From the NCBI GenBank assembly GCA_020444065.1, contig JAHLLQ010000004.1:262662-326661 (forward strand): a DNA stretch of 64,000 nt, read 5' to 3'. Positions 52,610 to 59,910 of this stretch are shown one piece after another. Position numbers and translations under genes: made by a program. Below the pieces are notes generated by a model. The model was not told the origin of the DNA, did no database searches, and worked only from the letters and a program-made list of their open reading frames with translations. The first letter of the stretch is position 1, and each line of letters begins with the position of its first letter. The stretch is from a bacterium (lineage in GTDB: Bacteria > Sumerlaeota > Sumerlaeia > SLMS01 > JAHLLQ01).

Positions 52610-55600
52610 ATGGCAAACAACAATGAGGGCGTTGTTCCTCCTGGCGATTTGACGGAGGACGCCGGCTTCACTTACGTCGGCGCAACCGTCACGGGCACAC
52701 CGACGACTTTGCTTCCACGAATGGTGGTGGAGCGCACAGCCTCCTGGTGTTTGACGCAATCGACTTCCAAACCCTCGGGCTCGGGATCGACTGGAGCGCG
52801 GAGGAATGGTCCTTCGTATCGAATGATGCAGCGCCTCGGCCAGGGCGGAATGGGCGAAGTCTGGTCCGCTCGCCAGGAGTCATTGCATCGCACCATTGCG
52901 ATCAAGCGCATTCGGGCGGGTCGCATCGAGTTTGCCGAGCAGGATGAAGTGGATTTCATTGTTGCCGGCTTCGAACGCGAGGCCTTCATCACGGCACAAC
53001 TGGAACATCCAAACATCGTTCCGATTCACGATCTGGGTTTCGATGAGAATGCCTCTCCTTTGATCGGGATGAAACTCGTCGAAGGTCGTCCGTGGGATGA
53101 TGTTCTGCGGGAAGACCTGGGTGCTCTTCCGTACGATACTTACCTGGCAAAGCACCTGAACATCCTCGTCGATGTGGCGAATGCGTTGGACTATGCCCAC
53201 TCTCGACAGATCATACACCGCGATCTCAAACCCTCGCAGGTGATGCTGGGAAGCTACGGTGAAGTGCTTCTCATGGACTGGGGACTGGCCATCTTTTTGG
53301 GCGATCCGACGGAGTCCGAAAAGTTGGAGGGACATCCGAATGTTCTTCCTCTTCGCGAGGATGCTTCCTCGCCCGCAGGCACGCCGGCCTACATGGCGCC
53401 GGAGCAAACGCACGAAGATCCCAGCGAGTTGAACTACGCGACGGATATCTTCCTGCTGGGGGGAACGCTGTATAACATCCTCACGGGCGAGCACCCTCAC
53501 AAGGCGCCCACGGCGCAGTTCGCATTTGTTGCAGCCAGTCAGTGTCGGATTGAACCTCCGAGTGTTCGCAAGCCAGACTTCCCAGTACCGGAAGAGCTGG
53601 ATCGTCTCTGCATGGATTGTCTGCGCCCGCAGCCGAGCGAACGCCTCGAGAATGCGGGCCTTTTTCGCGAGCGGCTGGAGGCTTTCCTGACCGGCGAAAC
53701 CCGGAAGGCGGAATCGCGGAGTATCACCGCGGATGTCGCGGAGCTCGATTTTACAAACGAGCAGCACTACCGTCCATTCAACGAAGCACTGAACCGTCTG
53801 GACAAGGCCAGGACGCTATGGCCAGAGAATCCGAAGGTGCATGCGATCGAGCAGGATCTTCTGCAGCGCCTCTGCGTCTTGGCGATCGAATCCGAAGATT
53901 ACCGCTTGGCCTCGCTGCAGATTCCCCGTCTTGAGAATGCAAGAACGCGCGAGGAAATGCAGAACCGAATCGATCTGGCCGTTGCGACGAAGGCGCGAAA
54001 GGACAAGCAGAGGAGGCGCGCCATTGCGGCGGCGTTCGCCCTACTCATCGTCGTCCTTATATCGACGGCCTTCTTCCTCTCCGTTGTGCACCAGAAGAAT
54101 GCGGTTGTGATGGCTCGCAACCAGGCCATGGCCGATCGTGCGGATAAGTCATACGATTTCACGAATGCCATGCTCGAGGAACTGACGCGCGACCTCGATC
54201 TGCAATCGGCCAGAGATCAGAAAATCGCCGAGAGCGTTGCGATGGAGGTCCTCAAATACTACTCGGATATGGACTTGAGTCGCGACGATGATGAGATCGC
54301 CGGATTGCTGATCATGACCATGGCAGAAACAGCCTCGACATTGTTCAGCCTCGGACGATGGGAGGAGGGCGAGAAGTTGACCAACCTCTGTTACCAGAAA
54401 GCGTTGGAGAGATTTCCGCCGGACTCGTATTATACTGCCCGCGCGTATTCGGCACTCGCCGAGGCGGCAAAGACACGCGAGGATACCGAGACTGCCCTGG
54501 AGATGTATACGAAGTCGCTCGAAATCCTGGAACTCTACCCTGATAGACAGAAGGATTTCCCGAACGGCGTTCGTTTGGGCAAAGCGATGGCACTTCTTGA
54601 TCTTGAGGAGTACGATCAGGCGGAGGAGGAATTGCTGGAGGCCATTCATGCGGATCAGAAGCGTCTGGACGACGCGGAGACGATTGAGGAACGCAATGAA
54701 GTCCTCGAGGACCTGAGCTATGGCTACAACAACTGGGGGATTCTTCTGTCGGAAACCGACCGCCAGGAAGAATCCATCGCGAAGTTTGAAGAAGCAGTGC
54801 GTTTGAAGAGGCTCTATCGCGATCCGCGCAGTCCCGATCTGGCCGTCACCATTGCAAACCTGGGACTTCAGCACATGGAGCTCGGCCATTGGGAGAAGGC
54901 ACGCGAGCTTCTGCAGGAATCCTACGAACTTCACCTGGGATACTTGGAGCCGGGAAATCCGGAATTGCAATGGATCTGCGAGAATCTGTTCTACGTGGAG
55001 TTCGATCTGCGAAATTATGAAAAGGCCGCCGAGTACGGCGAGAAAGATCTCGCATCGACCAAGTCAGCATACGGTGTCGTCCATGAAGAAACAGCCGATC
55101 TTGAGGAGGACCTTATTGACGCGTACGTGCGGTCTCGCAACTGGGAGCAAGCGGCCGCTCATCTGAAGGAGTACATCTTCATCGTCGACCAGTTGGACGA
55201 CGAGGTTCGGCATGCCGTGCAGGCACGCGGCGACTACTACGCTGTACTGACGCGCCTCGGACGCGATCAGGAGGCGCAAGGAATCCAGCACCAGTGGGAG
55301 GAGCAGTATGAACGGCTGGATTCTGACTCACGCCGTGTCCGAGCTCTCTACTACAGCACGGAATATATGAATCCGGAGATGCACCACGACATGCTTGGGA
55401 AGATCCGCGACCGGATGCTGGAGATTGACTTCGACTCGCTCAGCGAGAGCAACCAAGGACGCTACCAGTCAGTGTTGATTCTTTATCAGGTTGGCGTTGC
55501 GCTGCAGTCGGAAGGTTCATCGAAGAGTGCGGAGGAATGGCAGAATGTGATCAATCTTTTCGATGAAACCGGAGAGATTCCTTATCGCGAGGAAATTGTC

Positions 55601-55792
55601 TGGATTGGAATCGCATACACAAGACTTGGGGACAAAGAAAGAGGGACGGAGTTGATATGGCGTTTCCTTCAGGATGAAGAAGAGATGCTGACTCCGCCGC
55701 TCGAATGGGCACTGATCGATCACGGACTGGGAGACATTCTCGCCAAGTGGGAACCTAAGCGACTGGCTATGCTTGAGGAAAGGGATGGCTAG
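52610..55792 (+). CDS. Membrane Ser/Thr protein kinase with TPR-like C-terminal region
   Basis: 1060 residues. Kinase domain about 70-365: LGQGGMGEVWSA (glycine loop), AIKR (Lys99), IIHRDLKPSQVML (catalytic Asp205), MDWGLA (DWG in place of DFG, Asp223), GTPAYMAPEQ. One membrane helix at about 471-493 (AIAAAFALLIVVLISTAFFL). The C-terminal ~560 residues are all-helical with TPR-like units such as ESIAKFEEAVRLKRLYRDPRSPDLAVTIANLGLQHMELGHWEKARELLQESYELHLGYL and EEYDQAEEELLEAI. Predicted topology: kinase inside, repeats outside. Substrates unknown. The stop shares the CTAG tetranucleotide with the opposing kinase. Confidence 0.9.
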   Translation: MANNNEGVVPPGDLTEDAGFTYVGATVTGTPTTLLPRMVVERTASWCLTQSTSKPSGSGSTGARRNGPSYRMMQRLGQGGMGEVWSARQESLHRTIAIKRIRAGRIEFAEQDEVDFIVAGFEREAFITAQLEHPNIVPIHDLGFDENASPLIGMKLVEGRPWDDVLREDLGALPYDTYLAKHLNILVDVANALDYAHSRQIIHRDLKPSQVMLGSYGEVLLMDWGLAIFLGDPTESEKLEGHPNVLPLREDASSPAGTPAYMAPEQTHEDPSELNYATDIFLLGGTLYNILTGEHPHKAPTAQFAFVAASQCRIEPPSVRKPDFPVPEELDRLCMDCLRPQPSERLENAGLFRERLEAFLTGETRKAESRSITADVAELDFTNEQHYRPFNEALNRLDKARTLWPENPKVHAIEQDLLQRLCVLAIESEDYRLASLQIPRLENARTREEMQNRIDLAVATKARKDKQRRRAIAAAFALLIVVLISTAFFLSVVHQKNAVVMARNQAMADRADKSYDFTNAMLEELTRDLDLQSARDQKIAESVAMEVLKYYSDMDLSRDDDEIAGLLIMTMAETASTLFSLGRWEEGEKLTNLCYQKALERFPPDSYYTARAYSALAEAAKTREDTETALEMYTKSLEILELYPDRQKDFPNGVRLGKAMALLDLEEYDQAEEELLEAIHADQKRLDDAETIEERNEVLEDLSYGYNNWGILLSETDRQEESIAKFEEAVRLKRLYRDPRSPDLAVTIANLGLQHMELGHWEKARELLQESYELHLGYLEPGNPELQWICENLFYVEFDLRNYEKAAEYGEKDLASTKSAYGVVHEETADLEEDLIDAYVRSRNWEQAAAHLKEYIFIVDQLDDEVRHAVQARGDYYAVLTRLGRDQEAQGIQHQWEEQYERLDSDSRRVRALYYSTEYMNPEMHHDMLGKIRDRMLEIDFDSLSESNQGRYQSVLILYQVGVALQSEGSSKSAEEWQNVINLFDETGEIPYREEIVWIGIAYTRLGDKERGTELIWRFLQDEEEMLTPPLEWALIDHGLGDILAKWEPKRLAMLEERDG

Positions 55793-58700
55793 TTTCGCGT
55801 GCCAAAATCGTAGACGACGTAGATGTCGCCCTTCTTGCCCTTGAACGCCGTGACAGCGGGATCGGGCAGCACACGATTCGGGCCGCCGGTCCATTCTTCC
55901 GTTCCCGGCCAGTCCGCTCCGGGACGTCCGTAAGTGAACTTGAACTCCATCTCTTCGAACTTCGTATCGAAGACCCAGAGGTGCCCGCCTCCCACGCGTC
56001 CCTTGTACTTCAGTGCAGTCGTGTTGGGCGTCCAATCACCGAGCGAGTGCGTGCTGCCGGCGATGAACACGAAGTGACCATCATCTTTGCGCCCCATTCT
56101 CACGATGAAGTGCAGCGGGGTGCCCTCCTCGATCTTCGTCTTCTCCCACGAGGACATCGGTTGCGCGTCGCCAGGAACCACTTCGTAGAACCACCGCACG
56201 TCGGCGGGCTCGACACGAGCCTTCAGGCGTTCGAGGCGCTTCCAGTATTCGACGCGATCCGCAACCGTCATGCACGGCGGTCCGATTTGGTCGTCGCTCC
56301 TCTTCCAGGAAATCGTATCCCAGATAATGTCCTGGTCTTCCTCGACCGAAGCGATAATCTGCGTGCCGTTTTCGCTGAAGCGCGCCCGCAGGATCGTTCC
56401 ATTGGTTTCGCCGAGCGTCAGTATCTCGCGACCGCTGTCGGGATCCCAAATCTTGACCGTGCCATCCGAGGACGCCGTCACGACGCGATGATCGTCGGGA
56501 CTGAAAGATGCGCTCAGGACCTCGTCCGAGTGCCCGGTCAGCAGCGCCAGTTCTTCTCCCGTCGTCGCATCCCACACGCGGGCCATGTGATCGCCCGATG
56601 CGGTGACTATCCGTTTGTCGTCATTGCTGAATGCGGCACTCGTAACCCACGAAGTATGACCTTCCAGCGAGACGAGCAGCTTACCGGTGATGGAATCCCA
56701 GATCTTTGCCGTCCGATCGTTCGATGCCGTCACGACGCGCGTTCCATCATTGCTGAACCTGGCCGAACGAACGCCTTCGGAGGAGTGCCCAGCGAGCGTC
56801 ACGATCACGTTGCCTGTCTTCGTATCCCAGATCTTGGCGGTGGAATCCCAAGATCCCGTGACGATTCGTCGGCTGTCGGGGCTGAATGCCGCAGAGAGAA
56901 TTCCGTGCAAGTGACCTTCCAGGCGGGCGATTTCGATGCCCTTGTCGAGGTCCATCACGATGGCCGGTTCCTCCGCGCCCTCCGGTCGATAGTGCGGCGA
57001 GAATTTGACCATGAACTTCCCGTCGGGACTCGTCACAGCCTTCTCGACCATGCGCGCGGAACGTTCCACAACCTGGCGTCCTCGAATCGCCGAGACGTTC
57101 CAGACGCGGGCCGAACCATCTTCCGACGAGGTCAGAATGCGCTCGTCGTCCGCGCTGACGGAAACCGTCACGAGCGGACCCAGATGCCCGCGCATGACGG
57201 CGATTTCGCTGCCGTTCTCCGCATCCCACATCCGGGCCGTCCTGTCCGCCGATGCCGTCAGAATCCGATCGCCCGCGTTGTTGAAACACACATCGCGCAA
57301 GGCATCCGAGTGCCCAATCAGAGTCTGCTGAAGCTGTCCGCTGATCACATCCCAGACGCGCGCCGTGCGATCGCGAGACGCCGTAACGATCTGCGTGCAG
57401 TCAGGACTGAAACTCACTCCGGTGATCCAGTCGGAATGGCCGACCAGCCTCGAGACCGGCTGGCCCGTCGTCGTCTTCCAGATGGCTGCGCTGTTGTCTT
57501 GATAAGTCGTTACGATGTAGCGCCCGTCGGGGCTGAACGATGCGAGTTGCATCAACGCAGATCGCTCCGGAACCGTGTAAAGTAACTTGGCCGTCTCGGA
57601 GTCCCAGACCTTCGCCGTGTTATCGCGCGACGCGGTCAGGATACGCGTGCCATCGGCATTGAACATCGCGCTGTTGACGACGTTGATGTGGCCTTGCAGC
57701 GTCATGATCTCGCGCTTCAGCGAAACGCTCCAGACTTTCGCCTCGCCGAACGACGTCAGGACAAGCCGATCTCCATTCGGGCTGAATTGGCCCTTCAAGC
57801 GGCAGTCAAACATGCCGGTGATTGTCGCCAGCAGTTCGCCAGTGCGCGTCTCCCAGATCTTGGTCGTATTGTCCTGGTAATTCGCGAGAATCATCTCGCC
57901 GTCGGGGCTGAGTGTCGCGCCTTCGAGGAATGCATCGCGGCGCAGCAGAACGAGCAGTTCGCGACCAGTGATTGCGTCCCAGACATGAGTCGTTCGATCC
58001 GCGGCCGCAGTCAGGATGCGCGCACCATCCATACTGAATTCTGCGTTCAACAATCGATCGCCGTGTCCGGAGAGCGTGATCAAATCGGGATGGCTGCGCC
58101 AGATGAGACGCCCCCATTCCCACTGGCGCAGATGGGCGGGTGCATCGAACAAGGTCATGCGCGCTACATCGTAGCGCCCATCGCGAATCGCTGAATCGGC
58201 GAACCCGATCGAAGCGAAATACTGCTCCTCCTCGGCGCGGGCCAGATTCTCTTGGGCCAGCCGACGTTCTTCTTCAGCCAGCGTGAGACTATCCTGCGCG
58301 ATCTTCTTCTGCTCGATCGCCTGTTCCTCTGCAACTTCGGCGGCCTCACGCAACTGGGCCTCGCGGTGAGCGTTCAGTTTCTCTCGAACCGCCACGCCCA
58401 TCATTCCGATAAAGATAATGCCCAGCGCCGTCATCATTGCCATTTTCAGACGACGGCGCTGGCGATGTTGACGCTGGATGGCGTCTTCTTCTTCGTGAAT
58501 CCGCTGCTCGAGGGGCTCTTTATTCTTCTTGTAATACAGACCCCGCACGAGCGTCTTCGCCAGCGAGAGGTCGCCGTGTTTCAGCGCAAGTCGCGTGTGC
58601 GCCGCGCGGACTTCTTCCTGGAGAGAAAGCGCCGCCGGGTTGTTCGGCCAGAGGCTGGTCGCGCGCGCCAGGTTCTGCTCAATCTGCGCGAACTCGTCGT

Positions 58701-59910
58701 AATCGTGAACGCCGCTGATCGCCAGTTTGCGGCTGATGTCGCGAGCGATCTCGCGGCTCTCGCGTTGTCGACTCGCGCCGGTCAGATAATCCTCAACCGC
58801 CTCGCGGAATTCGCGCACCGATTTCTGCCGGGCTGTTGGATTGCCATTCAGAGCTTTGTCGATGATGGCGCGCAGCGCCTCCGGGCAGTCCTGCGGCAGA
58901 GGCAGGACTTCGTTCGTCATCGCCAGCTCAAAGGCCTCTTCCGCAGTTTCCGCTTCGTGCGGCGGAACGTTCGCAACGATCTCGAAGAGAATGGCACCCA
59001 GCAGGTACACGTCCGTGGCGAAGCCGAGTTCATTCGTATCTTCCGCGGTCTGCTCCGGCGCCATATAGACCGGCGTGCCGCACCGATTCATCGCTTTGTC
59101 GCGTGTTCGGAACTTCGGCAGGTTCACGCCGGCTTGCGTGTCGCCGGGGTCCTTCACACTCATTGCCAGGCCCCAATCCATCAGGAGCACTTCGCCGAAA
59201 TCGCCAATCATCACCTGCTGGGGCTTCAGGTCGCGGTGGATGACATGTTTGGAATGCGCGAACTCGACCGCGTGGCAGACATCCAGCAGAACGCGCAGAT
59301 GCCGCGACAGATGCAGGTCGAAATTGAAGTCCTTCTTCTTCCTGTCTTCCTCGATTTCGCGATCCCAGGGGCGGCCATTGACCATCTTCATGGCCAGCAG
59401 AGGACGCTCCGTGCCGTCCACTTCCGTGCGGCCGAGTTCATAGATCGGGATGATGTTCGGGTGATCCAGTTCGCCGGTCGTGTAGGCTTCCTGGAGGAAA
59501 TCGCGAATGCTGCCGCTGGTCTGGCGCTTCACGGCGACGCGGCGCATCAGGCTCGACTGCCACGCCTCCCAGACTTCGCCCTGGCCACCTTGTGCGATCT
59601 TCCGGATCAGAACGAAGTCGGCCGGCGTCGCGTCGAATCGCACCGGCGGGAGCGACTCCATTGCCGCTACCGCGGAGGGTGACGTGTCGCGCTCGACGAC
59701 AGTGACCGTCGCGCGCAGCGGCAGCGCCGTGTCTTCTTCCTCCTCCGCGTAGCCTTCCCGGTCGGATCGACTCCAGCTCAGAGTGTCCGATGGACGCAGC
59801 GCAGCCAACGTCTGCATCTGGTCCTTATCAAAAGGCAGACGAGAAGTGCGTCGATTGCGAGTCGTCCGCGACTTACGGCGCGCGGCTGCCTCCTGGTTTT
59901 CCGGACCCAT
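55789..59910 (-). CDS. Membrane Ser/Thr kinase with 14 WD40-like repeats and a CBM20-like starch-binding domain
   Basis: 1373 residues from the ATG at 59910 (a GTG at 59931 would add 7). Kinase domain about 97-378: IAQGGQGEVWEA, VAVKRQ (Lys128), VIHRDLKPQQVMI (Asp227), MDWGLA (Asp245), GTPVYMAPEQ. Membrane helix about 490-509, then a Glu/Ala-rich coiled coil to about 563. WD40-like repeats run from about 611 to 1208; I count 14, with the ninth degenerate, enough for two seven-bladed propellers. The last ~110 residues (about 1261-1371) read FIVRMGRKDDGHFVFIAGS, LGDWTP, EFKFTYG, EEWTGGPNRVL: the landmarks of CBM20 (strand GxxVFxxGS, LGxW, FEYKF, WExGxNR). Predicted topology places the propellers and the CBM outside the membrane. 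Ligand and targets unknown. Confidence 0.88.
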   Translation of the reverse strand: MGPENQEAAARRKSRTTRNRRTSRLPFDKDQMQTLAALRPSDTLSWSRSDREGYAEEEEDTALPLRATVTVVERDTSPSAVAAMESLPPVRFDATPADFVLIRKIAQGGQGEVWEAWQSSLMRRVAVKRQTSGSIRDFLQEAYTTGELDHPNIIPIYELGRTEVDGTERPLLAMKMVNGRPWDREIEEDRKKKDFNFDLHLSRHLRVLLDVCHAVEFAHSKHVIHRDLKPQQVMIGDFGEVLLMDWGLAMSVKDPGDTQAGVNLPKFRTRDKAMNRCGTPVYMAPEQTAEDTNELGFATDVYLLGAILFEIVANVPPHEAETAEEAFELAMTNEVLPLPQDCPEALRAIIDKALNGNPTARQKSVREFREAVEDYLTGASRQRESREIARDISRKLAISGVHDYDEFAQIEQNLARATSLWPNNPAALSLQEEVRAAHTRLALKHGDLSLAKTLVRGLYYKKNKEPLEQRIHEEEDAIQRQHRQRRRLKMAMMTALGIIFIGMMGVAVREKLNAHREAQLREAAEVAEEQAIEQKKIAQDSLTLAEEERRLAQENLARAEEEQYFASIGFADSAIRDGRYDVARMTLFDAPAHLRQWEWGRLIWRSHPDLITLSGHGDRLLNAEFSMDGARILTAAADRTTHVWDAITGRELLVLLRRDAFLEGATLSPDGEMILANYQDNTTKIWETRTGELLATITGMFDCRLKGQFSPNGDRLVLTSFGEAKVWSVSLKREIMTLQGHINVVNSAMFNADGTRILTASRDNTAKVWDSETAKLLYTVPERSALMQLASFSPDGRYIVTTYQDNSAAIWKTTTGQPVSRLVGHSDWITGVSFSPDCTQIVTASRDRTARVWDVISGQLQQTLIGHSDALRDVCFNNAGDRILTASADRTARMWDAENGSEIAVMRGHLGPLVTVSVSADDERILTSSEDGSARVWNVSAIRGRQVVERSARMVEKAVTSPDGKFMVKFSPHYRPEGAEEPAIVMDLDKGIEIARLEGHLHGILSAAFSPDSRRIVTGSWDSTAKIWDTKTGNVIVTLAGHSSEGVRSARFSNDGTRVVTASNDRTAKIWDSITGKLLVSLEGHTSWVTSAAFSNDDKRIVTASGDHMARVWDATTGEELALLTGHSDEVLSASFSPDDHRVVTASSDGTVKIWDPDSGREILTLGETNGTILRARFSENGTQIIASVEEDQDIIWDTISWKRSDDQIGPPCMTVADRVEYWKRLERLKARVEPADVRWFYEVVPGDAQPMSSWEKTKIEEGTPLHFIVRMGRKDDGHFVFIAGSTHSLGDWTPNTTALKYKGRVGGGHLWVFDTKFEEMEFKFTYGRPGADWPGTEEWTGGPNRVLPDPAVTAFKGKKGDIYVVYDFGTRN

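Follow-up and report, generated by a model that had tools for sequence, protein, structure and literature searches.

A WD40 receptor-like Ser/Thr kinase with a C-terminal CBM20 domain, a candidate sensor of periplasmic alpha-glucans in Sumerlaeota

Near the end of the window, as we call the whole 64,000-nucleotide stretch of Sumerlaeota DNA analysed here, lies a long gene for a putative membrane kinase that closes with a starch-binding type of domain. This raises the question of whether a bacterial receptor kinase may take its input from alpha-glucans and, if so, how the glucan-binding module came to be part of it.

Domain organization, topology and catalytic loop

The original prediction had placed a kinase, a membrane helix, 14 WD40 repeats and a CBM20 in one chain, and this order was borne out by Pfam, hydropathy and a by-eye count of the repeats in the translation (Table 1). 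The single chain carries the kinase, transmembrane helix, charged helix, two WD40 propellers and CBM20 in that order, and having a Pkinase domain, a single transmembrane helix and a WD40 array together it belongs with the WD40 receptor-like Ser/Thr kinases. The WD40 array (Pfam E 7.6e-96) spans residues 613-1205 and its 14 repeats fit two seven-bladed propellers; a single-sequence AlphaFold model of the ectodomain was poor overall, its confident regions being limited to a portion of the propellers, chiefly the second. The frame runs without interruption across 1373 codons from the ATG at 59910 to the stop at 55789, with a possible alternative GTG start 7 codons upstream (59931). An assembly chimera or frameshift was ruled out by this uninterrupted frame and because the domain order and the four site-1 residues recur in another gene, which lies on a different contig.

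Table 1. Positions of the CBM20 kinase gene, its domains and site-1 residues, and the adjoining kinase gene in the window
Feature	Position	Strand	Basis or remark
Whole gene, kinase-TM-helix-14 WD40-CBM20, 1373 aa	55789..59910	-	Open reading frame
Pkinase domain, residues 101-362	58825..59610	-	Pfam E 1.2e-31
Single transmembrane helix, about residues 490-509, N-in (predicted)	58384..58443	-	Hydropathy, charge; RQHRQRRRLK precedes
Charged Ala/Glu-rich helix, probable coiled coil, residues 512-575	58186..58377	-	By eye
Pre-propeller region (QYFASIGFADSA...WEWGRLIWRSHPDLI), residues 563-611	58078..58224	-	Common to WD40 kinases of the phylum
WD40 repeats 1-7, residues 613-905	57196..58074	-	Pfam; by-eye count
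WD40 repeats 8-14, residues 906-1205, repeat 9 degenerate	56296..57195	-	Pfam; by-eye count; ectodomain model
Post-propeller tail (QIGPPCMTVADRVEYWKRLERLKARVEPADVRW), end point of homologous kinases	56191..56295	-	Comparison with homologues
CBM20 domain, residues 1266-1351	55858..56115	-	Pfam CBM_20 (PF00686)
W1293, equivalent to CGTase W616, site 1	56032..56034	-	Alignment
K1324, equivalent to CGTase K651, site 1	55939..55941	-	Alignment
W1340, equivalent to CGTase W662, site 1	55891..55893	-	Alignment
N1345, equivalent to CGTase N667, site 1	55876..55878	-	Alignment
Tail-to-tail neighbour, kinase-TM-TPR protein of the same kinase family	52610..55792	+	Ends overlap 4 bases

The single best hydrophobic stretch covers residues 490-508, and 7 of the 20 residues N-terminal of it are Lys or Arg. 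As the segment RQHRQRRRLK precedes this sole hydrophobic helix, the kinase is predicted to lie inside and the remainder of the chain outside the inner membrane. A periplasmic WD40 array agrees with this positive-inside charge pattern, and the arrays of such kinases are predicted to be periplasmic in a survey of Planctomycetota (PMC11032199). The window also encodes LpxB, so that an outer membrane is likely and the CBM20 is predicted to be periplasmic. The end of the protein earlier described as outward-facing would thus lie beyond the inner membrane, as the charge pattern indicates, but is better called periplasmic. Behind an outer membrane, polymeric or granular starch would have no direct access to the CBM20, and oligosaccharides are expected instead.

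The description of the Hanks-type kinase as intact held in part. It retains K128, D227, K229 and D245 (DWG), among which are the VAIK Lys, HRD Asp and DFG Asp of an active kinase (K128, D227 and D245), but the catalytic-loop Asn is replaced by Gln232, and Ala stands where the glycine loop has its first Gly. With HRDLKPQQ in place of HRDxKPxN, the kinase half might be dead or very weak and the protein a glucan-responsive scaffold, a reading that gains from the presence of Gln in every one of the 34 family members that yielded a readable motif across the phylum, while nine further kinases from this genome have Asn. We hold it to be highly improbable, as the retention of Lys128, Asp227, Lys229 and Asp245 is unlikely in a decayed enzyme and a family-wide Gln resembles a functioning variant rather than a decayed one. 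The window kinase may be active, and phosphotransfer is not certain given the Gln in its catalytic loop. The form HRDxKPxQV[MI]xG, with Gln at a nearly invariant Mg-binding residue, runs through the readable members of the kinase family (including 58825-59610, 52610-55792, L041-L051 and L088-L111). The PASTA kinase profile NF033483 scored 155 bits against a cut-off of 450, and no PASTA repeats were seen.

The CBM20 domain and its binding site

The C-terminal domain matched CBM_20 with 29.9 bits against a curated cut-off of 23.3 (E 4.9e-7), and a six-frame search of the genome located the match at the same place with 28.9 bits. Within the C-terminal 139 residues, CBM_20 was the only Pfam family with an E-value of 10 or less, and CBM48 had no profile match there at that threshold. 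Four composition shuffles of the domain gave no CBM match, and the paralogue's domain matched in the same test. The CBM20 assignment made earlier from inspection of the translation was in this way confirmed by a profile score above cut-off, with CBM48 absent.

The best solved relative of the domain is the CBM20 of CGTase (profile E 3e-5; 1uks, 6l2h), to which it is similar in sequence throughout and with which it shares four site-1 residues. The residue numbers of CGTase were derived from the start of the alignment. We take CGTase W616, K651, W662 and N667 to contact the sugar at site 1 and Y633 to do so at site 2. The site-1 counterparts of the tryptophans in glucoamylase are Trp543 and Trp590 (PMC4965820). 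The window domain differs from that of CGTase in standing on a kinase and not on an amylolytic enzyme, in the replacement of Tyr633, which aligns with Gly1309, and in a 3-residue deletion before the K651 strand. Absence of the aromatic binding residues from an alignment had been named beforehand as grounds for giving up the glucan-binding idea; site 1 kept four residues of four, but the site-2 tyrosine is gone. Given the loss of site 2, the domain may have a low affinity or an altered ligand. A single-sequence AlphaFold model of the domain failed to fold (pLDDT 36.5), and the beta-sandwich is thus unproved here.

We give an even chance to the reading that this is a WD40-type receptor-like kinase with an added one-site periplasmic CBM20 that modulates the kinase on binding short alpha-glucans. 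The kinase would be in the cytoplasm and the propellers and CBM20 in the periplasm, where site 1 would bind short alpha-1,4-glucans or cyclodextrin-like ends that occur there while starch or glycogen is broken down, the propellers acting as a scaffold or as a binder of partner proteins. Ligand binding may then act across the single helix through altered clustering or conformation, and in this way change the phosphorylation of cytoplasmic targets. In this scheme the topology, ligand, signalling direction and kinase activity of the window protein are all predicted.

A second CBM20 kinase and the origin of the module

The second copy, on contig C6 (L009:1750-6189), encodes 1480 residues in the same domain order, and differs from the window protein by about one more WD40 repeat and a longer linker before its CBM20 (27.2 bits). 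The genome has 14 close kinases of this family, two of them with canonical WD40 arrays, and both of these carry CBM20; TPR repeats are found on most of the others, and one kinase (L051) has degenerate propellers, with no CBM20 reported.

The pre-propeller region matches WD40 kinases in 12 of 39 genomes of the class, and the chains of these homologues end, where this was measurable, 7-28 residues past a WKRxxR motif that is conserved. Both this motif and the D[VI]xW ending of the homologues are present in the window protein, which then continues into the CBM20. In a subgroup (L096, L102 and L112) the tails are somewhat longer, lack CBM20 and are similar to the linker of the second copy. Among 40 genomes compared from the phylum, no CBM20 above cut-off was found in a kinase-sized frame outside the window's own genome. 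As the homologous kinases end where the CBM20 starts, we conclude that the domain was added to an existing receptor and is not part of the propeller. That homologous kinases do without the module, and that most positions around the site differ between the two copies, would also suit a CBM20 fold that binds no sugar and either serves for contact between proteins or caps the second propeller structurally. Such a cap, however, would be expected in the homologues too, and the four site-1 contacts are invariant between the two CBM20 domains despite their identity of 36%, which makes a role of this kind improbable.

The relationship of the two CBM20 kinases was compared in separate trees of the two halves. 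For the kinase half, the tree groups the window kinase with L041 (97/80), a TPR kinase from its own genome, and not with its CBM20 twin, and a simple duplication of the two CBM20 kinases was rejected for this half (AU p 0.021). The ectodomain tree places the two in one loose group, and their sisterhood was not rejected (p 0.30). The kinase halves of the two are thus probably not sister lineages, in which case the module was moved or gained onto two chassis; the pattern suggests a shift of the ectodomain, or of its CBM20, between kinase chassis, two separate gains of CBM20 being a possible alternative. The bolder proposal, that a receptor Ser/Thr kinase directly senses periplasmic alpha-glucans via CBM20 and that movement of the module between chassis produced two parallel receptors, is offered tentatively, at rather less than an even chance. 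Two scans of a larger genomic contig collection and one of a viral contig collection, made with narrow patterns of the CBM20 region, confirmed no relative, which speaks weakly for absence, and tblastn against plasmids and phages gave no match.

Genomic context and comparison with known systems

The neighbours read in the window were the kinase-TPR gene, a HAD hydrolase, radical SAM proteins, a thioesterase, LpxB and a Der-like GTPase, and no alpha-glucan gene was present among the neighbours read beside either copy of the CBM20 kinase. Two membrane kinases, the TPR and the WD40-CBM20 protein, here adjoin at their 3' ends. A defence-system reading was rejected, the PADLOC matches being generic kinase matches. 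GH13 matches make up 26 stretches in about 20 open frames of the genome, which also has one glycogen/starch synthase, so that alpha-glucan metabolism is prominent in it.

CBM20-like domains also occur in this genome on a predicted esterase, a polysaccharide deacetylase and an SGNH-type hydrolase (types assigned by eye), and a CBM20 need therefore not mean starch in this lineage. The site-1 WxGGxNR segment is absent from these three CBM20-like sequences, the kinase copies being nearer to the canonical site. WD40 propellers usually bind proteins. The CBM20 might be a tether to some glycan or glycoprotein of the periplasm or envelope, and the actual signal, a protein or peptide, would be recognized by the propellers; the usual role of such propellers, the several non-amylolytic exported enzymes with CBM20 and the missing site-2 Tyr all speak for this. 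We consider it unlikely, though worth serious attention, since both copies keep the site-1 residues, which a weak tether to another glycan would presumably not demand.

The CBM20-esterase-like gene (L011:253-2127, - strand) is divergent from a kinase-TPR gene of the same family (L011:1797-5480, + strand), and a functional pairing of the two is possible. The deacetylase-like and SGNH hydrolase-like proteins (L012:2397-4019 and L013:1998-3047, both - strand) exemplify non-amylolytic use of the domain. Two adjacent frames with CBM48-like landmarks, below the CBM20 threshold, adjoin sugar ABC permease-like genes (L010:2115-6683, - strand).

The preferred reading, of a receptor kinase with an added glucan-binding module, can be set beside several known systems. 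The window protein resembles the Planctomycetota WD40 receptor-like Ser/Thr kinases in its one transmembrane helix and long WD40 array, with the kinase predicted to be cytoplasmic and the array periplasmic, and differs in the CBM20 after the propellers, neither CBMs nor starch figuring in the main text of that survey (PMC11032199). A full-text literature search for CBM20, protein kinase and WD40 together gave a sole match, which concerns glycophagy. With the main text of the survey (PMC11032199), this agrees with the original statement, which knew of no described kinase with such a domain order. The parts are known and their combination appears to be new, and as the scans of larger collections were narrow, it may occur more widely. 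The inputs of bacterial WD40 and TPR receptor kinases are mostly unknown, according to the discussion of the survey (PMC11032199). A sensor domain whose ligand class is known and whose site can be tested would offer one entry point to them, with a defined ligand, two tryptophans open to mutation and phosphorylation as the read-out.

The PknB/PASTA kinases are receptor-like bacterial kinases with an exported end that binds sugar polymers, and are similar to the window protein in being receptor-like with an exported end, which is predicted for the window protein and in which no PASTA was seen. Laforin joins a CBM20 to a phosphatase and AMPK has a CBM48 on its beta-subunit, and both couple an alpha-glucan module to phospho-signalling. 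These differ from the window protein in being eukaryotic and soluble, in having a phosphatase or a separate subunit, and in having no propellers. If the preferred reading is true, the window protein would be a bacterial counterpart of these glucan-sensing signalling enzymes, independently reached. Plant GWD3 is a soluble plastid enzyme which phosphorylates the glucan itself, and its glucan dikinase fold is unrelated to the window kinase. The CBM20 of GWD3 is thought to have a single functional site (site 1), with site 2 absent, a low affinity and a suggested regulatory role, and is like that of the window protein a one-site CBM20 on a phosphotransferase (PMC6243121).
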